Of a DNA stretch of 22,075 nucleotides, positions 1 through 22,075 are shown piece after piece. The number at the start of each line of letters is the position of its first letter. Position 1 is the stretch's first letter. The DNA is from a virus. The notes beneath the pieces are model-generated. The model was not told where the DNA came from and did no database searches. It saw only the letters and a program-made list of their open reading frames with translations. The DNA lies in the IMG/VR virus record IMGVR_UViG_3300030110_002256, positions 1 to 22,075 of that record; one strand, written 5' to 3'. The position numbers and the translations under genes were made by a program.

Positions 1-549
1 TGCTATTGTAAAATACACTATATCTCCTACACTTGTTCCAGGCATAATACCTGATGGTAATGGTACGTTTGCTGGAAAAGTAATCACACAGTTATTAGTC
101 CCAACTCCTGTTCGAGTAGCCTGTATACCTATTCCTTGTACTGAACGCAGTGGAAATTCGTTACTAATTGGATTAGCTTCATTGTTTCTTAAATAAGCAA
201 ACCATGCTCCTTCTTTTTTTATAAAATAACTATTTGTAATAAAACCTGTAGTTTGAATATCGGAAGTTACCGTAGCCCCCCAAGTATCATCAGACTGTAT
301 ACCAATAGATTTAAATATTTTATTTTCTAAAGGAGCTTCGTTAAATACACTAGTTATAGTTGAGTTAAATTGTGTTCCATAATAGTTGTTTCTTGACGCT
401 GTATTATCATTATGTTGATACAGGTTACCATTTTTAAATGTATACAAAAACCCATTCATTCCTAATATTTTTTCTGGTATATAAGAATAGAAAGATGGGA
501 ACCCTTGCACGGATTCGCTATATGTTACTGTCTGATTACTAAATGGCAT
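1..549 (-). CDS. Phage structural protein following the muzzle gene (partial, C-terminus off the window)
   Basis: The reading frame opens with ATG at 549-547, ten bases after the stop of the giant tail gene, and stays open for 183 codons to the window edge, so the C-terminus is missing. The visible protein begins MPFSNQTVTYSESVQGFPSF and contains the segment PLENKIFKSIGI. It is rich in Asn, Ser, Thr and aromatic residues and has no signal peptide or membrane segment, as expected of a beta-rich virion protein. I recall similar SESVQGFPSFYS...PEK proteins directly after the large tail protein in aquatic crAss-like phage genomes, where they are annotated only as structural or hypothetical. The position next to the muzzle-like gene points to a tail or tail-associated part. 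The exact role is unknown. Confidence 0.75.
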   Translation of the reverse strand, partial: MPFSNQTVTYSESVQGFPSFYSYIPEKILGMNGFLYTFKNGNLYQHNDNTASRNNYYGTQFNSTITSVFNEAPLENKIFKSIGIQSDDTWGATVTSDIQTTGFITNSYFIKKEGAWFAYLRNNEANPISNEFPLRSVQGIGIQATRTGVGTNNCVITFPANVPLPSGIMPGTSVGDIVYFTIA

Positions 550-10121: not shown

Positions 10122-11570
10122 TTATGCTTTAAATAAGAAGAAGTTATTTGCACCCATAGTACATACACATCTTTCAGATAAGAAGTTAACGCTCATTACA
10201 TCTATATCAGACGTAGCTGCGCCACCTGCACCACCAGTTATCCATGTTTTATATCTTCTATCTTCAGTTTCTGAAGCTCTATATCTAACATGTAAAAATG
10301 GTCTTTTTGCATTTCTACCTAAAATTTGGTCATATACTGTAGTTGAACCTGCTGGTACCATCAATCCATTGATAGCTCCTCCAACTAGTCCACCTCTCAT
10401 TGTTGGGTCATTTAAGTATTTCCAATCAGACTTATAGAAGTCGTAACCTCTTCTAAATCCTCTGAAACCTAAATTTAACGCCATTTCTTCATCATTGTCA
10501 AAAAGACCGTAAGAAGAACCACCGTTTCCATATGAGTTTTGTGAAGCTAACATATCATCAATGTCAAAACCAAATTGTCTATTTAAGAATAATACATTCT
10601 CTTCAATAGAACCTTGCTTATCTAATCTTTCGATAATTGCATCGAAGTCAGCTAAGACAGTTGGGTTTCCACCTGACCATACATTTCCTCTTGTCCCCAC
10701 TACGTGGAAGATACCTTCTGAACCTTTGTTACCTGCTATACCTGCTGCATTCGCAATAGCTCCTGAAGCTGCTTCTGCTGGAACTGCTTCCACCATAGCT
10801 GTTTCTAGGTAATCGTCAAAACGTAATCTTGTGTCGTGCTCAGACTTTAGATACCATAGATATCCGTTAGCCCCGTCTTCACCTGAAATTTCAATCCATC
10901 CGATTTGAGCCATATCTGAACCATTCACTTTATAAGTATCTTTTAAGATAATTGGTGAATTAGTAAATATAGAATCATCTGAGATTAAAGTTTCTGGCAT
11001 TCCAACTTGACCTTTTTTAAATTCTGAACCGTAAATAAATACATCACAATCTACTCCTGCTGCCATAGTTTGACCTCCAGCTTCGTAATAAGCTACGGTA
11101 AAAGTTCTGTTAGCATAATCTACAGCTGTTACAACTGCTTTGTTAGTGAATGAAGACCCTGGTGTAGAGTCAGAGAACATAACAGTGTGTCCAATTCTAA
11201 TAGCAATACCTCCTGCTGCACCAGTTTGTGGCTGTGTAGCTGGAATTATTTGAGCTGCTGGAACTGTCCATGTAGCAGTGTCTTGAGCTGCTGCTGCACC
11301 TGATGTTACTCCTGTATATTTTACGTGTAATCTACCTTGCTCCGCCCAGATTACTTTATCTGAGTTTGAAGGCATTTCAGCACCTACCATTCTTAAGAAT
11401 GATGATACTGTTCTGTTACCATAACGCTCGAATTCTTTTTCATACGTATCTGGAAGATAAGTACTTAAGAAATCGAAGTTATTGATATAATTAGTGGATG
11501 TAGTAATCTGCTGCGCACTAGGCTGCAACTGAAAATTTAACAAGCCACCTGTTTCAATACTTCCTGGCAT
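10122..11570 (-). CDS. Major capsid protein (crAss-like HK97-fold family)
   Basis: This 482-aa protein forms the icosahedral shell. The N-terminal arm includes about residues 36-82, with DTYEKEFERYGNR, SFLRMVGAEMP and VIWAEQGRLH, a block I recognise from crAss-like major capsid proteins. The length also fits that group (roughly 480-500 aa). Further in are FLNRQFGFDIDDMLASQNS and the Gly-rich GAINGLMVPAGSTTVYD, and the chain ends CTMGANNFFLFKA. I see no separate N-terminal protease-type delta domain; the charged protein encoded just upstream (11603-12697) probably supplies scaffolding. No TAnnTTTG box lies in the 32-base gap before the gene, so it is probably co-transcribed with that protein. 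A strong terminator follows. Codon use is noticeably richer in C and G third positions than in its neighbours, consistent with high expression. Confidence 0.92.
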   Translation of the reverse strand: MPGSIETGGLLNFQLQPSAQQITTSTNYINNFDFLSTYLPDTYEKEFERYGNRTVSSFLRMVGAEMPSNSDKVIWAEQGRLHVKYTGVTSGAAAAQDTATWTVPAAQIIPATQPQTGAAGGIAIRIGHTVMFSDSTPGSSFTNKAVVTAVDYANRTFTVAYYEAGGQTMAAGVDCDVFIYGSEFKKGQVGMPETLISDDSIFTNSPIILKDTYKVNGSDMAQIGWIEISGEDGANGYLWYLKSEHDTRLRFDDYLETAMVEAVPAEAASGAIANAAGIAGNKGSEGIFHVVGTRGNVWSGGNPTVLADFDAIIERLDKQGSIEENVLFLNRQFGFDIDDMLASQNSYGNGGSSYGLFDNDEEMALNLGFRGFRRGYDFYKSDWKYLNDPTMRGGLVGGAINGLMVPAGSTTVYDQILGRNAKRPFLHVRYRASETEDRRYKTWITGGAGGAATSDIDVMSVNFLSERCVCTMGANNFFLFKA

Positions 11571-12748: not shown

Positions 12749-15184
12749 TTATCTAGGCTCAAATTCTGCTAAATCAAAACCATCTAAACTGTCTTCATTA
12801 GACTCAAATCTTTGAGGAGGTAAATTATTTTTCCTTTGATTTATTAATCTTGACTGTTCATTATTGGCTTGACTTATTCTATTAGACTTAGCTTTTTCTC
12901 TTTGGAGCTCTCTGTCCTTCAAACCTTTTTCGCTAATATCTCTTAACTGTTGATTATACCCAAACTCTTTATCCATAAGAGTTCCTTTTAATTGAGCTTC
13001 AGCATTTAGTCGTTCTATTTCAAAAGCAACTTTTGCTTGTTCCAATTGCATTTTAGCTTGACTCTCAGCTTGAATTTTTTGCATAGCAGTTTGCGCAGCC
13101 ATTTGCTGTGATTGCATTTGAATTTGACCCTGCTGCTGTTGTTTTTGCATTTCAAACTGTCTGTCTTTTTCTTCTTTAGTTTTACGCTTCATTTTTAAAA
13201 GTTGATTCGCAAGTTTAAGATTATGAATTTCTCTAATATCAATTGCGTCTTCTAAATTTATATCACCCTTTTGCAATGCCATTTGAATATTTTGTTCTAA
13301 TTGAGCTTTTTCTTCGGCATCAGGAGTTACTTCAATAAATATTCCAAAATCATAAATGTATAAATCATTCATTTCTTGTAAAATAGTTACATTGTATTTT
13401 CCTATTTGATTTGCAAATTCATCTTTAAATTCTGCAAATTCTAATATATCAGCCATTCTATACGACAATCCTTCAGCTAAAGTTCTATATATATACAATG
13501 AACCATCTAATATGTGCCTTGTCGCTGTATTAGAATTTAATGATGCTAATTTTTGAATACCAACTAAAGCATTAGGGTCAGGGTTACTTCCATCTTTAGC
13601 TTCACTTAAGCCCGTTACTTGTCTAATCATATTTATATAATTATTCATATTTGTAATTAGCATCTGTGTTTTGCTTGCGCCAGAATTTGATGTAAGCTGA
13701 GTGATAGGAACTTTACCTTGATTAAAGTCTCCATCTTGCGTATAACTTCTACCCACTACACTACCAGTTTGAAAATACAATCTTAGTGCATCTTCAGGAT
13801 TATAAGCATTACCTGTTCCTAAATCAACTTCATTAAGACCATCTGCATCAATGTATACTCCGTCTGGAACTACTCTTGATATTACTTGTTGTAATTTTAA
13901 ATGAGTTAACTGTATTAAATCAGCAAAAGGAATCATACGCTTAGTTAAGGATTCAATTCTTCCTTTATACATTCTTGGAGATGTTGCTACATAGTTAGGT
14001 AAAGCTGCTTGTGTAGCAGACTTAGGTCTTACCATGTTTTCCATCAACTCCCACTTTAACATTATATTTGTTCCCATAACCATGATACCGTCATACCAAA
14101 CATCTATAGTTTTAGAAATTTTTCTAAAATTATTTTCCTCCATCATTTCTTCTGGCGGATTAAAAGAATCATCTTTTTCTATTATTTTAGTTGCGCCATT
14201 TTCATTTACTTTTTTCTTGTAAACATATTTTTTTGTAGTCTTATAGTTAAAATACATTAATGTAACTGTGTCTTTATAAAAAATATCGTTATTATAATAT
14301 TGACGCATATTAAAATAATCATCCCACATTTGACTGTATTGACTAATTTCTTTTAAGTCATCATTAGTTAATGACTGGTCTATCTTCATTAATTCTGTTA
14401 TAGCAACTGTTTTAATTTCACCCCAATAAAAACAATCTTTGTATTGTGGGTCTTCAGTATAACTATGAATTAAATTTGCAGGGTCTACATATTTAACCTC
14501 GACTCCTGCTCCTGGTAGGAACTCATGTTTTGCACATGCAAATCCTAATACTGCTAAATCATAATCTAATCTTCTTCGTATATCTTCATAATGATTTTCT
14601 GCAAATATTGTATCAATTCCTTCTTCTTCAGCTATTTCTATAGCTGGCTTATAATTTAGCTGCATATATAATGCAAGCTCTTCATCTGTGTTAGGTAAGT
14701 CATCAGGTGACATTGTAAATGGATTAGCTCCAGTGCCTTTTTCAATAACAGAAAGTAATTCTTTAGAAACCATCTGTGCTTCAATCATATCTTGAAAAGC
14801 ACTTCTTTTAGATTGCGACATAGCATCTTGTGCATAAGCATTTACCTTAAACAATCTGTCATTCATTCCATTAACCACTAAGTCTACAAACTTAGGGATA
14901 ATAGGTACAATTGACCAATCAAGATTTAGATAAGACAAATCTCCATCTACTGCTAATTCGTTTTTATATTTGGCTATAGGTTGTTCTCCACGAGCATACA
15001 ACCTCAATCGGTTAAAGTCTTGCCAACGACTGTAATATCTACACGCAGAAGAATCTTTTCTAAACCACTCATATTGTATAGCTTGGCCTATAATTAGACC
15101 ATACTCTTCAGTTGCTTTTTCTGCATCTGAAACATACTGGCTAGGAAACCCTACATTAGATATATCTATTTTTATATCTTTCAT
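12749..15184 (-). CDS. Portal protein (crAss-like family)
   Basis: This 811-aa protein would form the dodecameric ring at the DNA-entry vertex, acting with TerL. Residues about 57-108 hold the conserved block FNRLRLYARGEQ, DLSYLNLDW and IIPKFVDLVVNGM that I recognise from crAss-like portals. A second conserved part is GLSEAKDGSNPDPNALVGIQ near the middle of the wing/crown region. From about residue 664 to 790 there is a Gln and Lys-rich helical segment (KQQQQGQIQMQSQQ and following) predicted to form a coiled coil, probably the barrel-like C-terminal extension. The tail is acidic (SLDGFDLAEFEPR). The ATG at 15184 directly follows the TerL stop (TAAATG), so the two are coupled. The length matches the roughly 800-aa portals of this group. 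Confidence 0.93.
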   Translation of the reverse strand: MKDIKIDISNVGFPSQYVSDAEKATEEYGLIIGQAIQYEWFRKDSSACRYYSRWQDFNRLRLYARGEQPIAKYKNELAVDGDLSYLNLDWSIVPIIPKFVDLVVNGMNDRLFKVNAYAQDAMSQSKRSAFQDMIEAQMVSKELLSVIEKGTGANPFTMSPDDLPNTDEELALYMQLNYKPAIEIAEEEGIDTIFAENHYEDIRRRLDYDLAVLGFACAKHEFLPGAGVEVKYVDPANLIHSYTEDPQYKDCFYWGEIKTVAITELMKIDQSLTNDDLKEISQYSQMWDDYFNMRQYYNNDIFYKDTVTLMYFNYKTTKKYVYKKKVNENGATKIIEKDDSFNPPEEMMEENNFRKISKTIDVWYDGIMVMGTNIMLKWELMENMVRPKSATQAALPNYVATSPRMYKGRIESLTKRMIPFADLIQLTHLKLQQVISRVVPDGVYIDADGLNEVDLGTGNAYNPEDALRLYFQTGSVVGRSYTQDGDFNQGKVPITQLTSNSGASKTQMLITNMNNYINMIRQVTGLSEAKDGSNPDPNALVGIQKLASLNSNTATRHILDGSLYIYRTLAEGLSYRMADILEFAEFKDEFANQIGKYNVTILQEMNDLYIYDFGIFIEVTPDAEEKAQLEQNIQMALQKGDINLEDAIDIREIHNLKLANQLLKMKRKTKEEKDRQFEMQKQQQQGQIQMQSQQMAAQTAMQKIQAESQAKMQLEQAKVAFEIERLNAEAQLKGTLMDKEFGYNQQLRDISEKGLKDRELQREKAKSNRISQANNEQSRLINQRKNNLPPQRFESNEDSLDGFDLAEFEPR

Positions 15185-17431
15185 TTATTTCACTAATTCA
15201 CTATATATTCCTTTATTAGCATATCTTGCAAAGTTAATGCTTATTTTTGATTGTTTTTTAACAGGAGTATAGAGGTGTTTTTGATTAGCCATTATAGCTA
15301 AACCTGAGCTTATTGAAGCATCAAATTTAGTTCTATTATTAATGTCAAATTTTGCCCAGTCTTCTAATGTCCTTGTAAAAAGCATATCTCCCATCTCGTC
15401 ATTATCTCTAAAGTTACCTTGTAAATCAATACCTACATGCTTTTCTATATAAGATTCAATAGCGGCAGCGTGGGACTGTTTTACATCTTCACTCGAATTA
15501 GGTATGCCACCTAACTCTTTTTCTGTTTTAGAAAGTTTGTTGTAAGATTTGTCTGGTCTGTTTAAACTATACCCTCTATATCCTCTGTTTTTAAAATGAT
15601 ATAAAAGTCTAGGTTTGTTGTTTTCACATAATAATGGCATGCCATAAAAGATACAAGCCATTAAAACATCTTCGAAAAATATTTCTGCTGTTTGTGGCCT
15701 AGCAACATATTCTAAAAAAAAAGTATTACTTGGCGCTTTGTCCATATTAAATTTTGTCATTCCATGCAAAGCACCATTAGAACCTTTTCCTCCAACTGTT
15801 CCTGATATATCATAACTATCACAACCAAAAGAACCTATGTGTTCATTCGCTGGATAATTAACTCCATTCTTTTTAATAATTCTATTTCGCAAGTTTGATT
15901 CAGGAATCCAAGCTAAATGAAATCTTCCTTTTTGCGATGGATTAAATATTACTTCCGTGTCTTTAATTCCATTTTTCCAACTAAAATTACCTACACTTAC
16001 ATGCTGCTCTTTAATTAAAGAATCGTTGTAATCTATCTGTTGATATATTTTAGTAAGGTTAAACAAAGATTGTTTAGACTCATCTCTAAATGCATGCGAT
16101 TCTGTTCTGGGAAATTGTCTGTAAAATTCGTTAAGTGCGTTTGAGTCTTGTTTAAGAGAGTCTACTTCATTTTGCCAATAGTCTATTGCACCAATTTTAA
16201 TTTTCTCATTATCAATGCCTAAGACAGCTTTATCTTTAACAGATAAAACAGGCATTCCGTATTTGTCAATAAACCCTTCCATGTTCCACTCCATAGGTAC
16301 AAACAAACTATATAGTCCACTTTTTGTTTGACCATTTGCGTTTCTTTTTGTAATATCAGAATCTTCATATAGTTTTTTAAAACTACTCCCTCCTTTACTT
16401 AAAGCATTAGATGTAGAACCCATCATACATTTTCCAATAATTTTTCTACCTAATCTTAAACAAGTTTTTGTTACTCTCCAGTTGTTTAATATATTATTTG
16501 GCTTTATCCATTTACCACTTTCATCGTGTACTAATAATAATAGTTTTTCTCCATCATATGAATTGTCATCAGTGTTTTTCCAGTCTATTGTTGTATCTAA
16601 ACCATCCATTTCAAAATCATCTTCTAAATGCATATTTTTTTTGGTTATTTTAGAAGCTGGTACACGAAAAGCTAATTCAGTTTTTGGTTTATCCATACCG
16701 TCTTGAATCGGTTTAAAAAAGAAAGGATAATTGTTGGTTATAGGAACTACTTTATCTGTAAACATTTTTTTAGCATCAGCCCCTGTTTTAGACAAAATAC
16801 CTATTCGAGAATCTTTTGATATAGTAGCAATATTAGCACATTCTTCAGAACCCATAAATGAAAAACCTGACCTTCTGATTTTTAAATAACAAATTCCAAA
16901 ACTTCTGGCATCAGCTTTACAAGCTTCCCAGTAAATATAAAACAACCTGTTAGCCTCTCTAAAATCTGGAAACCCTACATCAATTTTAGTCCACTGAAGA
17001 TACATGTAATGTGAGCCAGTAATATAAGTATGAACTCCATTATTCCAAAACCAATGCCCATCTTCTCTTCTTTCAAACTCTTGCTCTATATAGTCAATCC
17101 AATTATTCTTGAATGCAGCAGGCATCTCATTCCATATAAAAATACTAGGTATTTTACTCATTGCTTTTGGGTACTCAGCTCTTTCCCAATATTGTTCTAA
17201 ATAATTTTTTGGTCGTTTACGACCAATTTCTGGTGATAATGGCAGCGCTATATCTAAACCACTGATACTAATAATTTCACCAATCTGCCCTGTTTTAGAA
17301 ATAATAATTACATTATACTTTTCATTATAGCCATACAACCATGATTTAGCTTTGTTTTTTTTTGACAAAACATTTTTAGGTATAACGTCTGTTAAGACTT
17401 CATATAATTTATTTTGAGTTTCTTTCTGCAA
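15185..17431 (-). CDS. terL: Terminase large subunit (packaging ATPase and nuclease)
   Basis: This 748-aa protein packages DNA: an ATPase motor plus an RNase H-like nuclease that cuts the concatemer. Residues about 126-180 (HWFWNNGVHTYITG, then YLQWTKIDVGFPDFREANR) are typical of crAss-like TerL. The P-loop position (186-192) reads RRSGFSF, without the usual GK[ST]. Walker B is LLLLVHDES (297-305), with the catalytic Glu at 304, and the coupling motif is GSTSN (338-342). Nuclease acidic residues are probably D538 (GCDSYD), E603 (LCEN) and D704 (FDASISSGLAIMA). The start is TTG at 17431: the frame has a stop a few codons upstream and the next ATG would remove 90 residues. It overlaps the previous gene by 23 bases, which suggests translational coupling. 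Confidence 0.95.
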   Translation of the reverse strand: MQKETQNKLYEVLTDVIPKNVLSKKNKAKSWLYGYNEKYNVIIISKTGQIGEIISISGLDIALPLSPEIGRKRPKNYLEQYWERAEYPKAMSKIPSIFIWNEMPAAFKNNWIDYIEQEFERREDGHWFWNNGVHTYITGSHYMYLQWTKIDVGFPDFREANRLFYIYWEACKADARSFGICYLKIRRSGFSFMGSEECANIATISKDSRIGILSKTGADAKKMFTDKVVPITNNYPFFFKPIQDGMDKPKTELAFRVPASKITKKNMHLEDDFEMDGLDTTIDWKNTDDNSYDGEKLLLLVHDESGKWIKPNNILNNWRVTKTCLRLGRKIIGKCMMGSTSNALSKGGSSFKKLYEDSDITKRNANGQTKSGLYSLFVPMEWNMEGFIDKYGMPVLSVKDKAVLGIDNEKIKIGAIDYWQNEVDSLKQDSNALNEFYRQFPRTESHAFRDESKQSLFNLTKIYQQIDYNDSLIKEQHVSVGNFSWKNGIKDTEVIFNPSQKGRFHLAWIPESNLRNRIIKKNGVNYPANEHIGSFGCDSYDISGTVGGKGSNGALHGMTKFNMDKAPSNTFFLEYVARPQTAEIFFEDVLMACIFYGMPLLCENNKPRLLYHFKNRGYRGYSLNRPDKSYNKLSKTEKELGGIPNSSEDVKQSHAAAIESYIEKHVGIDLQGNFRDNDEMGDMLFTRTLEDWAKFDINNRTKFDASISSGLAIMANQKHLYTPVKKQSKISINFARYANKGIYSELVK

Positions 17432-17621
17432 ATCCTTGTTTAGTATCAGTTTTTAAAATTCCTTTTTCTGCTAAATCCATATTTTCTTTTTCAGTTTGTA
17501 TACGGTTAAGTATTTCAAACGCATCAAATACAGCTAGTTTTTTTGTAGCCGCAGCATTTTTAAGCCTATCTGCTGACAAATCATCTTCAGGGTCGTGCTT
17601 AATTATTTTTTCCTGAGCCAC
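17409..17621 (-). CDS. Small pre-terL protein, C-terminal frame (possible terminase small subunit, apparently frameshifted)
   Basis: From the GTG at 17621 this gives 70 aa, VAQEKIIKHDPEDDLSADRL and onward (Val read as Met), with a helical Ala and Lys-rich segment (KNAAATKKLAVFDAFEILNR). GTG is the only standard start in the open frame, and clearly coding-like sequence continues upstream of it (IIAAGEKAVRELIK) up to a TAA near 17730. Removing one A from the A5 run (T5 at 17663-17667 on the plus strand) would join this frame to the 44-aa ORF at 17635-17769 and give one basic protein of about 119 aa. A small, Lys-rich, helical protein directly before and overlapping terL could be the terminase small subunit, but I see no definite DNA-binding motif. 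The break may be a sequencing error, a real mutation or recoding. Confidence 0.6.
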   Translation of the reverse strand: MAQEKIIKHDPEDDLSADRLKNAAATKKLAVFDAFEILNRIQTEKENMDLAEKGILKTDTKQGFAERNSK

Positions 17622-17634
17622 TTTAATTAATTCT

Positions 17635-17769
17635 CTAACAGCTTTCTCCCCTGCTGCTATAATTTTTAATTTTATGCTTTTGGTGTCTATCTTTGTTTCG
17701 ATTATATTTAATTTTAGGTTTTAATTCGTTTTCAAAATTGTTTCTTTTTTTTCTTTTAGATTTTCTCAT
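17635..17769 (-). CDS. 44-aa basic ORF, probable N-terminal part of the pre-terL protein
   Basis: The ATG at 17769-17767 overlaps the TGA of the preceding gene (ATGA), a spacing typical of this genome, and the frame runs 44 codons to TAG at 17637-17635. The start is extremely basic (MRKSKRKKRNNFENELKPKI), resembling a DNA-binding tail. After about residue 35 (KHKIK) the frame becomes unlike protein (NYSSRGESC), while the next frame becomes coding-like at the same place (IIAAGEKAVRELIK). I therefore read it as the N-terminal fragment of the gene that continues in 17409-17621, not as an independent gene. The 5-base T run at 17663-17667 is the likely break point. Confidence 0.55.
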   Translation of the reverse strand: MRKSKRKKRNNFENELKPKIKYNRNKDRHQKHKIKNYSSRGESC

Positions 17770-18332
17770 TTCCAAAAACCTGTAATACTTTGAGACATTA
17801 TTCTATAAAGTTTTTCATCGTCAACAATAAACTCATATTCAGTATCTGGCTTGTAACAAACTCTATCTCCATTTTTTATTCCTAAATCTTTAAGTTCTTT
17901 ATTTACATATTTCATTATTCCAGTTAATGGCTCGTGTTTTGTATTTTTATAAATTACTGAATCTTCAGTGTCAATAGGTTTTACAAAACAATATTTACTA
18001 TGAGGCTTCCATTTACCATCTTGTTTGTATAAAAAAAACTGGTCTTCATCAACCATAAATGTATTGTCTTTTAAAAAACTCCTACCGCTTCTTTGTCTCC
18101 CTCTCATGTCGTAATAAAATTTAAATACATTATGATGAACTAATAAAGTATCTCCTATTTTAATATCTCCTTTATACCCTTTAGGTGTATTTAAAACTAT
18201 ACCTTCTCTGTTTGAAAATCTAAAATCTTCTTGAGAAGTGCTAGTAATAATTTCATTGTTACCAATATTTTTAGTGTTATTATATCTACGGTTTTTTTTC
18301 GGAGTTATAATAAAGTCAACTAAAGATTGCAT
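17766..18332 (-). CDS. Tandem GroES-like (co-chaperonin-fold) protein
   Basis: This 188-aa protein looks like two GroES-type beta domains in a row. Domain 1 (about 6-103) follows the GroES pattern: FIITPKK, a flexible Asn-rich loop, REGIVLNTP, DIKIGDTLLVHHN, and a closing VDEDQFFLYK. Domain 2 (about 115-185) has CFVKPID, TGIMKYVNKELKDLGIKNGD, then VDDEKLYRIMSQSITGF, close to the GroES ending in which a Leu/Tyr-rich strand precedes the SDI motif. The start ATG overlaps the previous stop (TAATG), and the end overlaps the pre-terL ORF (ATGA). Phages such as T4 carry GroES replacements (gp31) that help fold capsid protein. A similar role here, or a purely structural use of the fold, is inference. 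I recall this family in aquatic crAss-like phages as hypothetical. Confidence 0.62.
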   Translation of the reverse strand: MQSLVDFIITPKKNRRYNNTKNIGNNEIITSTSQEDFRFSNREGIVLNTPKGYKGDIKIGDTLLVHHNVFKFYYDMRGRQRSGRSFLKDNTFMVDEDQFFLYKQDGKWKPHSKYCFVKPIDTEDSVIYKNTKHEPLTGIMKYVNKELKDLGIKNGDRVCYKPDTEYEFIVDDEKLYRIMSQSITGFWK

Positions 18333-18556
18333 TAAAAGTTTATATTATATTCGACTGATACAGGCATTGTAGAAGAAAACGATTTCCACAAAAACACATT
18401 ATTTGCTTGTATGATGTATATAAAATAATTTGAAGTTTTTGCATCCCATTTTATCAAATGTATTTTATAATTATTGTTTAATACATATTGACCAATTAAA
18501 TAATGCATAGCGCCTGATTTGTAATCAGGGCCTATTGACAATTTGCGTATATCCAT
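18332..18556 (-). CDS. Conserved small protein of crAss-like phages (74 aa, unknown function)
   Basis: The protein begins MDIRKLSIGPDYKSGAMHYL and ends SFSSTMPVSVEYNINF. It is alternately hydrophobic and polar, rich in Tyr, Ile and Asn, and probably a single small beta domain. No membrane segment or enzyme motif is seen. I recall proteins with the same GPDYK...MHY...VSVEYNINF frame directly before the GroES-like gene in related aquatic phages, without known function. The stop and the next ATG overlap by one base (TAATG), so it is translationally coupled to the GroES-like gene and may act with it. Confidence 0.68.
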   Translation of the reverse strand: MDIRKLSIGPDYKSGAMHYLIGQYVLNNNYKIHLIKWDAKTSNYFIYIIQANNVFLWKSFSSTMPVSVEYNINF

Positions 18557-19889: not shown

Positions 19890-20122
19890 TATTTTTTAGC
19901 TTTTCTTCCTTTTCTTGCTTTGCCTTTTACAGCATCATCTATATCTCCTATTTGATTTCCTACTTCTTTTATAGCATGAGCAACATCAGCTAATTCAGCT
20001 GCTGTTAATTTATACCTTTTTTTTATTTCTTTTACCGTAGCTACAGCTTTTTCATCTAAAGATGTTTTACTCCATAGAGCATTCCACATATCTTTCCAAT
20101 ACTGTTTAGTTAATTTCCACAT
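19889..20122 (-). CDS. Small Trp/Lys-rich helical protein (77 aa)
   Basis: The N-terminus MWKLTKQYWKDMWNALWSKT is an aromatic amphipathic helix. The middle is a charged helix (LTAAELADVAHAIKEVGNQI) and the C-terminus a very basic tail (GKARKGRKAKK). It is too polar for a classic membrane segment, but the Trp-rich start could lie on a membrane surface. The ATG lies inside the last codons of the S74 fibre gene (13-base overlap) and the stop overlaps the next ATG, so it is made with the fibre proteins. I do not recognise the function; a nucleic-acid binding or assembly role is possible from the basic tail. Confidence 0.62.
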   Translation of the reverse strand: MWKLTKQYWKDMWNALWSKTSLDEKAVATVKEIKKRYKLTAAELADVAHAIKEVGNQIGDIDDAVKGKARKGRKAKK

Positions 20123-22075
20123 TTTTTATTTTTTAAAATTTCTATTTCTTGTTTTAATTCTTTAATTGATTCAATTAATAGCGGAACAAGTCTGCCGTAA
20201 TCAACAGTTAAGTAGTCTTCTTCTGTATTGTATGAAATAGGAGCTGTTTCAATAACTTCTGGTAAAACTTTTTCTACTTCTTGTGCGCTAACTCCTACTT
20301 GTCTTTCGTAATTTTCAAAGCCTAAATCTGCGGCTTGTTTATTTTGTTTGTAATAATATCCGTTTAGTTGACACACTTTGTCTAGAGCGTTAGGTATGTT
20401 TCCCTGGAAGTTTTTTAATCTTTCATCAGAATAGTAAGCCACAATATTTCCTGTAGCTCTAATAGTACCACTTGCTGTTGCTGTTGTTCCTGCTGATATA
20501 CCATATCCTGAAGGAACATAGAATCCACTTCCTGCTGTAAATATAGTTCCTTCTCCTATCGTTAATGAACCTGTGCCTCCAAAGCCATTAATTTTAGTAG
20601 ATGTATCATCTGTGTCTGTATTAAACTCAAAAACTCCGTTATTGTTTTTAAGAGAATACCCTGAGTTATCAGCAAAAATTAATTTATTTGTTGAACTATT
20701 CCATGCTAAATCACTATCACTTGTAAGACCTGTGCTACTATTCCAAAGAGCTATTCGACCACTAGACCCTGTACCTGTTACTGTTCCTGTATTAGTTGTA
20801 AATCCTGCATCATTATTCATAATAGACAAAGGAATTAATGAAGGTGTCATTTTAAAAGAAGTTCCACCTGACGAATCAATAATAAACCTATCACTGTTTG
20901 TCATAGCTCCTGTAGCAGTACCTAATTCAGTTAAATCTAAAGTTATATCAGGAGTAGTTGTTCCATTTGAAACATCTAATCCAGTTCCTACTGTAACTTG
21001 GGTTACTGTTCCATTACCTGTTCCTGCGCCTATGTCAGAACGAACTTCAGCCGCTGTTCTTGATTCTATTCTATTACTATTTCTAGTTAAAAACACTGAA
21101 GCAGCCGAACTCATAGCAACCATATTATTAACCGAAATTCCATTAGCAGTAATTGAAAACATATTTACTCCACCTCCTGCTACATATACCATATCACCAC
21201 CTGGACTATATATACCTGTGTTTGTGTCTCCATTAAAAGTTATAGAAGGCGCGCTTGTAGAACCTAATCCTACTATAACCTTGGCGCCTGTAATATTTGT
21301 TGTTGCTTCTAAATTTGTTGTGAAAATTGTATCACCATCTACATAAAAGTCTGCATCGGAATCAATAGCAGTTGTACCATTCCAAATAGCTAATCTATTA
21401 TCAACTCCAGTTCCAGTTACTGTACCATCACCTGTTCCAGCGCCAATATCACTTCTAACTTGAGAGCCAGTTCTATATTCTACAACACCACTATTACTTA
21501 CTAAAAATTTATCAGTATCACTTGTTGCATTGGCAATACTACTTAGTGTTAAGGCATCTGCAATAACTGCTGAACCAGATTGTAATGAGAAAACATCATT
21601 TGTTCCCAAACTTGCATTTCTACTGATTTTAAATTTATTACTATCACTTTTATCAATACCAATGGCATAATCCATTGCGCCTTGAGTTTCAAATGTTATT
21701 TTAGCATCATCCCCAGTAGCACTCCCTGCATTATGTATGTCTAAACTTACAGGGGCATCACCACCATCAAAATATATTTGAGTGTTTTGTTGATTTTGTA
21801 TTGTAGTAGTAGCGGTTAATTTAAGAATATTTCCCTCGCCTCTTACACTTGAATTTGCCCAACTAACAGCTTTATTGTTAGGCATATTTATTACACCTGG
21901 AACAGCAAGGTCAGTACCATCAAATGTAAAACCTGAGTTACTTTGTATCTGAGATGAACTAGCCCAATACGCTACTCTGTTAGCAGCTCCAGTTCCAGTT
22001 ACTGTTCCAGTACCAGCTCCAATATAAGATAACAAATTTGCTCCTGTGACAAATTTAACTTCACCGCCATCAGAC
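20110..22075 (-). CDS. Tail fibre with C-terminal peptidase S74 intramolecular chaperone (partial, N-terminus off the window)
   Basis: The frame is open to the right window edge; the TTG at 22035 is internal (preceded by EVKFVTGANL), so the start lies outside. The visible fibre repeats a GTVTGTG..NR.A.W......SD..F unit three times (relative to that TTG, about residues 10-40, 204-232 and 416-445), with RSDIGAGTG spacers twice (194-202, 332-340), typical of elongated trimeric fibres. The end is an S74 chaperone of about 106 aa beginning YSDERLKN: DKVCQLNGYYYKQ, YERQVGVSAQEVEKVLPEVI, DYGRLVPLLIESIKEL and a terminal coiled coil. In this family the chaperone trimerises the fibre and then cleaves itself off before the Asp of SDER (Ser codon at 20428-20430). 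It probably binds the host surface. Confidence 0.9.
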   Translation of the reverse strand, partial: SDGGEVKFVTGANLLSYIGAGTGTVTGTGAANRVAYWASSSQIQSNSGFTFDGTDLAVPGVINMPNNKAVSWANSSVRGEGNILKLTATTTIQNQQNTQIYFDGGDAPVSLDIHNAGSATGDDAKITFETQGAMDYAIGIDKSDSNKFKISRNASLGTNDVFSLQSGSAVIADALTLSSIANATSDTDKFLVSNSGVVEYRTGSQVRSDIGAGTGDGTVTGTGVDNRLAIWNGTTAIDSDADFYVDGDTIFTTNLEATTNITGAKVIVGLGSTSAPSITFNGDTNTGIYSPGGDMVYVAGGGVNMFSITANGISVNNMVAMSSAASVFLTRNSNRIESRTAAEVRSDIGAGTGNGTVTQVTVGTGLDVSNGTTTPDITLDLTELGTATGAMTNSDRFIIDSSGGTSFKMTPSLIPLSIMNNDAGFTTNTGTVTGTGSSGRIALWNSSTGLTSDSDLAWNSSTNKLIFADNSGYSLKNNNGVFEFNTDTDDTSTKINGFGGTGSLTIGEGTIFTAGSGFYVPSGYGISAGTTATASGTIRATGNIVAYYSDERLKNFQGNIPNALDKVCQLNGYYYKQNKQAADLGFENYERQVGVSAQEVEKVLPEVIETAPISYNTEEDYLTVDYGRLVPLLIESIKELKQEIEILKNKKCGN

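Follow-up and report, generated by a model that had tools for sequence, protein, structure and literature searches.

The question raised by this locus is whether a 188-aa open reading frame lying next to the packaging genes of a viral DNA encodes a co-chaperonin made of two GroES domains and, if so, on which chaperonin and for which client it would act. The DNA analysed, hereafter the window, is the whole stretch of 22,075 nucleotides (positions 1 to 22,075 of IMG/VR record IMGVR_UViG_3300030110_002256). From the letters alone, a first-pass annotation had read both halves of the protein as GroES-like, suggesting that the capsid or a very large tail protein requires modified chaperonin folding, as with T4 gp31, or else that the fold had been reused as a virion part. 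The ORF at 17766-18332 was borne out and lies on the minus strand, within a minus-strand late module composed of a tail fibre, small ORFs, the tandem gene, the terminase large subunit (TerL), the portal, a capsid-like protein and further virion proteins, among them one of 1898 aa:

Positions 20110-22035, minus strand: tail fibre with endosialidase-chaperone domain.
Positions 18332..18556, minus strand: small conserved ORF of 74 aa, directly upstream of the tandem gene and overlapping it by 1 base.
Positions 17766..18332, minus strand: tandem GroES-domain co-chaperonin gene (ORF with ATG start, 188 aa).
Positions 18018..18332, minus strand: N-terminal GroES domain, residues 1-105 (HHalign E 2e-5; fold Z up to 8.3).
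Positions 17769..18011, minus strand: C-terminal GroES domain, residues 108-188 (HHalign E 2e-11; VIA Z up to 8.8).
Positions 17409..17769, minus strand: small ORF(s) in the interval from the tandem GroES gene to TerL, with a homologue in 87 loci.
Positions 15185..17431, minus strand: TerL (PHROG 6681, E 2e-173).
Positions 12749..15184, minus strand: portal protein (PHROG 6547, E 3e-128).
Positions 10122..11570, minus strand: virion structural protein of 482 aa (PHROG 13704, E 5e-99).

The proposed vicinity to the packaging genes holds throughout the family, as TerL lies directly downstream of the tandem gene, with at most one small ORF between them, in 94 of 94 loci with room. Judging by position, the 482-aa virion protein may be major-capsid-like and the small ORF(s) at 17409..17769 may play a small-terminase-like role; family searches with the latter and with the 74-aa upstream ORF, which has a homologue in 80 of 88 loci with room, returned no match. 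The conserved small ORF 5' of TerL has an ATG start (MDSKNIKL...) in loci L006 and L013, while an isoleucine codon occupies the start position in the window and in L001/L002, and in L003 the interval before TerL holds one short ORF that has an ATG itself. Furthermore, a Lys/Arg-rich ORF of ~45 codons, whose ATG at 17769 overlaps the stop of the tandem gene (ATGA), overlaps the conserved small ORF in a different frame. An unusual start, a frameshift or an overlapping gene may underlie this puzzle.

With respect to the domain assignment, Pfam Cpn10 (PF00166) matches the window protein over residues 129-182, i.e. in the C-half only, with E 0.011 and 16.2 bits, which falls below the cut-off of 21.1 bits; this cut-off is passed by the relatives in phi38:1, phi19:3, G015, G016 and G021, and 35 of 36 relatives give a Cpn10 match at E<=0.1. 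PHROG 13932, 'co-chaperonin GroES', covers residues 1-183 (4.8e-25). A profile was built from an alignment of 46 relatives, and its halves were compared separately by HHalign with a combined profile of bacterial and phage Cpn10, resulting in a probability of 97% (E 2e-11) for the C-half and of 77% (E 2e-5) for the N-half. The N-half score of 32.7 compares with a mean of 10.7 (sd 2.3, maximum 18.4) for column shuffles, and for N-half and C-half alike the observed score was equalled by none of 200 such shuffles. Hence, the HMM search against Cpn10 families that the first-pass annotation had proposed leaves the Pfam match sub-threshold and confined to the C-half, while the combined profile is significant for both. 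The N-half scores poorly when compared only with bacterial GroES (probability 8.8%, 1 of 200 shuffles as high) and is closer to the phage single Cpn10s (46%). The two halves also match each other weakly (HHalign probability 4.5%), which leaves a recent internal duplication without support. A phmmer search of the window protein against PDB sequences gave no matches, and a profile search against the PDB gave only weak GroES matches (E 0.17).

The predicted structure agrees with the profiles and shows a GroES β-barrel in both halves, so that the reading of both as GroES domains stands, and GroES as well as gp31 were matched. AlphaFold2 returned a pLDDT of 84 and a pTM of 0.78 for the whole protein and 81.5 and 0.71, respectively, for the N-half alone. 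For the whole chain the top solved-structure matches are 7ekq_R and 7ekq_Q (Foldseek E 5.7e-5 and 5.5e-4), named 'Cpn20 co-chaperonin subunit' and 'Chaperonin 23', which are tandem co-chaperonins of Chlamydomonas; 7ekq_R aligns collinearly, residues 1..188 to 11..194, with a VIA Z of 10.2 over 162 residues, at a low identity of 11-13% between the phage tandem and the 7ekq chains. The 15 best VIA alignments of the N-half alone are all to Cpn10/GroES chains (Z 6.3-8.3), with dehydrogenase GroES-like domains lower in the list (Z up to 5.6), and its Foldseek E-values are weak (best 0.019). The C-half matches GroES with VIA Z up to 8.8. T4 gp31 is matched by each half (Z 6.4-7.8), in the case of the N-half with Z 7.8 and an rmsd of 1.9 Å over 62 residues.

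Such a fold would bind GroEL through its mobile loops, and in both domains a mobile loop with a putative GroEL-binding triplet is conserved at the aligned position:

Positions 18207..18284, minus strand: N-domain mobile loop, residues 17-42 (low pLDDT blocks 70, 62).
Positions 18243-18251, minus strand: hydrophobic triplet of the N-loop, residues 28-30, conserved as [FLIV][IV][TV] in 46 relatives.
Positions 18063..18137, minus strand: HHN motif (residues 66-68) and conserved basic hairpin (residues 71-90) of the N-domain.
Positions 17919..17975, minus strand: shorter C-domain mobile loop, residues 120-138, with a conserved pattern.
Positions 17949-17957, minus strand: triplet of the C-loop, residues 126-128, conserved as hydrophobic or aromatic-I-aromatic.

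In the N-domain triplet the last residue is mostly T and thus less hydrophobic than its GroES counterpart, and canonical forms of this loop occur in the elemo phage (NGLIL) and in phi19:3 (KTESGLEL); in the phage single Cpn10s the loop is canonical (SGLLLS). Measured directly on the sequences between the last residue of strand 1 and GxV, the mobile-loop region is longest in the tandem N-domain (~35 residues), followed by gp31 (~30), E. coli GroES (~26) and the tandem C-domain (~21). The roof loop was measured as the number of residues from GxV to GD, which is mostly 20-21 in bacterial GroES, 14 in gp31, 13 and 14 in the tandem N- and C-domain, respectively, and 11-12, by the pattern used, in the phage single Cpn10s. 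This short spacing indicates that the phage GroES domains have no roof loop, and T4 gp31 also has none (PMC6318259). The HHN motif and the basic hairpin, by contrast, have no GroES counterpart; among the 46 relatives H66 and H67 are kept in 45 and N68 and G78 in all 46, and the hairpin is predicted with low pLDDT (58, 56). They could bind a metal, or serve in contacts between domains or with a client, and the divergent N-domain that carries them may do something else.

The tandem GroES gene belongs to a group of Bacteroidota-infecting phages. Among annotated phages, 86 records contain a relative, as do at least 470 stretches of IMG/VR, with many invariant residues conserved across hundreds of contigs; the records include Cellulophaga phages phi38:1, phi40:1, Calle, phi13:2, phi18:3, phi19:3 and phi46:3, the Flavobacterium elemo phages, Maribacter Panino and the Manatee Spring genome (54% identity). 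When the phi38:1 protein served as the query for viral contigs, only 4 loci were retrieved and little was gained, and a partial tblastn match in Synechococcus phage S-B68 (E 0.02) was read as chance. A scan of bacterial-genome contigs gave 8 matches, all in MAG contigs, one of them, at 61.6 kb, as long as a phage genome. The loci L113-L118 fall in MAGs named Pseudomonadales, Aliivibrio, Cytophagales and TMED88, unrelated taxa that hold contigs of this phage group, which looks like misbinning; as such, the MAGs provide no reliable host.

As to earlier annotation, RefSeq and PHROGs already carry the family, known from phages of Cellulophaga, Flavobacterium and Maribacter, under the labels co-chaperonin GroES or cpn10. 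In Pervagoviridae, chaperonin cpn10 is counted as a core protein by Bartlau et al. (PMC8776804), and homologues of GroEL and GroES are mentioned in the Panino paper (PMC11590407). The annotated proteins (PHROG 13932; phi38:1 gp089; GroES of elemo and Panino) represent the same family with the same gene order, yet these sources give the name GroES/cpn10 without the two-domain build or the three-part set of genes described below. The co-chaperonin annotation is already known, whereas for the tandem build and the three-part set of genes no description was found in the literature searched.

At a distance from the tandem gene, the genomes of phi38:1, elemo and Manatee Spring also encode GroEL and, as a gene of its own, a single-domain Cpn10. 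Among the 25 records selected by the tandem gene, 20 encode GroEL and all 20 of those a single Cpn10, usually beside GroEL; in the relatives checked, this cassette lies 8-14 kb upstream of the tandem gene. Single and tandem co-chaperonin occur without GroEL in phi19:3 (W02), G021 and phi18:3. Neither GroEL nor single Cpn10 was found in G001, G005 and G013, whose contigs reach only 5-9 kb beyond the tandem gene on its upstream side and thus stop short of the expected cassette position, so that the single Cpn10 is present in 22 of 22 tandem records with enough sequence. The window, a fragment of 22 kb, ends too early to include such a cassette; its 88% identical relatives G002-G004 carry it. Conversely, 28 contigs picked by phage GroEL contain a single Cpn10 in 27 and the tandem in 21 cases, and all three genes are found in 14 of 14 contigs that measure 50 kb or more and whose GroEL is close, although none of these counts represents independent events, given that the sampled phages are related. 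That the single and the tandem protein are kept together even without a phage GroEL suggests that the pair is the unit, able to use host GroEL.

Comparison of 16 phage GroELs revealed that the ATP-site residues are kept with few changes, that the GroES-binding face is altered (V263/V264 to A/A and L234 to E in most) and that the inter-ring contacts are changed. In the phage GroELs (loci L083, L084, L091, L093-L101, L157-L171), residues that make the inter-ring contacts in E. coli are lost. The latter change suggests that the phage GroELs may be single-ring or use another interface, and both alterations would be expected if these GroELs had co-evolved with dedicated lids. The GroELs of phages EL and AR9 are phage-encoded chaperonins likewise, but are single-ring or ring-splitting and are not known to depend on a GroES lid, while the GroELs studied here are accompanied by one single and one tandem co-chaperonin. 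Peptides of the phi38:1 GroEL have been reported from infected cells and from free-virion samples in a methylation study, the gene numbers of which differ from RefSeq (PMC13288928).

Altogether, the two GroES folds, the missing roof loop and the company of Cpn10 and GroEL favor the co-chaperonin reading and the comparison with gp31 made in the first-pass annotation. We consider it likely that this gene of the late module encodes a tandem co-chaperonin acting as a lid on GroEL, either the phage's own or that of the host; the most plausible lid would be a ring built from three tandem chains and one Cpn10. The two mobile loops would dock on GroEL apical domains, on those of the phage where it has its own GroEL and on those of the host otherwise, and the docked lid would close a folding chamber for head or tail proteins of the phage. 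Tandem chains alone provide an even number of domains for a seven-membered GroEL ring, and the natural lid would therefore combine three of them with one single Cpn10 to reach seven domains; for plastids, such hetero-rings, in which Cpn20 and Cpn10 together supply seven GroES domains, have been described or proposed (PMC5780408). In the absence of a roof loop from all domains, this lid should be more open than GroES, as is that of T4 gp31. We infer GroEL binding, the hetero-ring, late expression and the client of the tandem protein. With regard to the client, the very large tail protein put forward initially (1898 aa) finds no support, being far larger than the capacity of the GroEL cage of about 60 kDa (PMC5780408); the capsid-like protein of roughly 50 kDa would be a more reasonable one.

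Double GroES proteins with head-to-tail domains have been described before only in plastids, i.e. in chloroplasts and the malaria apicoplast, and tandem GroES proteins have been called chloroplast-specific (PMC5780408). The phage protein shares the two domains per chain with plastid Cpn20/Cpn21/Cpn23 (Arabidopsis, Chlamydomonas; Cpn20 of the Plasmodium apicoplast), and the plastid system, the apicoplast excepted, has a single Cpn10 alongside, as in phages. It differs by being phage-encoded, by its late-gene position beside TerL, by the absence of roof loops (measured in the phage domains only), by having one long and one short mobile-loop region, and by starting directly at the first barrel with no transit peptide and without a plastid origin. 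The phage tandem thus probably works like plastid Cpn20 without being a member of that group, and its origin is probably independent. T4 gp31 is likewise a phage co-chaperonin without roof loop, with a long mobile-loop region as in the tandem N-domain; however, gp31 acts on host GroEL as a homo-heptamer of one-domain chains, whereas the phage tandem has two domains, an extra Cpn10 and usually a phage GroEL. As judged from the predicted structure, plastid Cpn20/23 rather than gp31 is the closest solved architecture. Going one step further, we tentatively propose, at somewhat less than even confidence, that these phages possess a private three-part chaperonin, in which a phage GroEL with an altered lid-binding face would be capped by a roofless lid of three tandem chains and one Cpn10, the tandem being supplied with the late genes, so that a plastid-like hetero-oligomeric lid would have been reached independently and tuned to capsid or tail folding.

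The co-occurrence of both co-chaperonins is no proof of a hetero-ring, since Plasmodium Cpn20 can work without Cpn10 (PMC5780408). A lid of tandem chains only, placing six or eight domains on the seven-fold GroEL, is rather unlikely in our view, with the single Cpn10 then forming separate lids at another time of infection. Lids made of tandem chains only are known to function in vitro: GroEL accepts concatemers of six and eight GroES/Cpn20 domains, and GroES can be replaced by Plasmodium Cpn20 on its own (PMC5780408). The timing may differ as well, since the tandem lies with the late genes and the single Cpn10 usually by GroEL, 8-14 kb away in the contigs checked. Against this arrangement speaks the single Cpn10, which is kept in every record with enough sequence, including the GroEL-less phi19:3 and G021.

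That the GroES fold has been reused as a virion part, e.g. a neck, portal or tail component, is suggested by the position of the gene between tail-fibre and terminase genes and by the conserved non-GroES features of the N-domain (HHN, basic hairpin). Virion MS/MS data, available as notes in the GenBank records of phi40:1 and phi18:3, which are relatives and not the phage of the window, speak against it. In phi40:1, at least 13 late proteins, small ones included, are flagged (gp069, gp077, gp080, gp087, gp091-093, gp095, gp097-101; the note of gp085 begins likewise), and no flag is found on the tandem gp089, TerL, GroEL or Cpn10; the DNA of the tandem region is identical in phi40:1 and phi38:1. 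In phi18:3, gp085-087, gp099, gp104 and gp112 are flagged, and the tandem gp096 is not. Given these annotations, to which the steady presence of Cpn10 and GroEL adds, the virion-part alternative of the first-pass annotation is disfavored, and we regard it as improbable.

A lid that caps the host Clp protease or blocks host GroEL, as an inhibitor or adaptor, appears very improbable. The best structural match, 7ekq, is the ClpP-capping complex Cpn11/20/23 of Chlamydomonas, and a preprint cited in PMC8889267 states in its title that the co-chaperonin complex inhibits ClpP, but the 7ekq chains are the sole tandem co-chaperonin among the PDB matches seen, so that the match reflects architecture; besides, a search of 25 records revealed no ClpP gene, while most of these phages encode GroEL. 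Finally, a decayed or neutral gene, or a domain of other function whose barrel resembles GroES, as in alcohol dehydrogenases, is scarcely credible despite the weak Pfam score and the dehydrogenase domains among the lower fold matches, because hundreds of contigs conserve the gene with many invariant residues and true Cpn10 chains outrank all dehydrogenases for both halves.

On the preferred reading of a tandem co-chaperonin joining a single Cpn10 on GroEL, the database 'GroES' beside TerL is to be re-annotated as a second, double-domain co-chaperonin in genomes in which the ordinary one is already present. An even-numbered lid on the seven-fold GroEL constitutes an open 'symmetry dilemma' (PMC5780408), and the cultured phages phi38:1, phi40:1, elemo and Panino offer a compact system for lid composition, cage size and client range. 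Two minor observations were made beside these. The 69.9 kb viral contig G112 (L223), the exception among the GroEL-selected contigs, encodes a distant GroEL, 37% identical to the query, with no detectable Cpn10, and this GroEL is possibly a lid-independent phage chaperonin. Many Bacteroidota genomes encode a second Cpn10-like protein beside normal GroES, in an open frame of ~120-270 aa (e.g. G059:C22:18324-18650).
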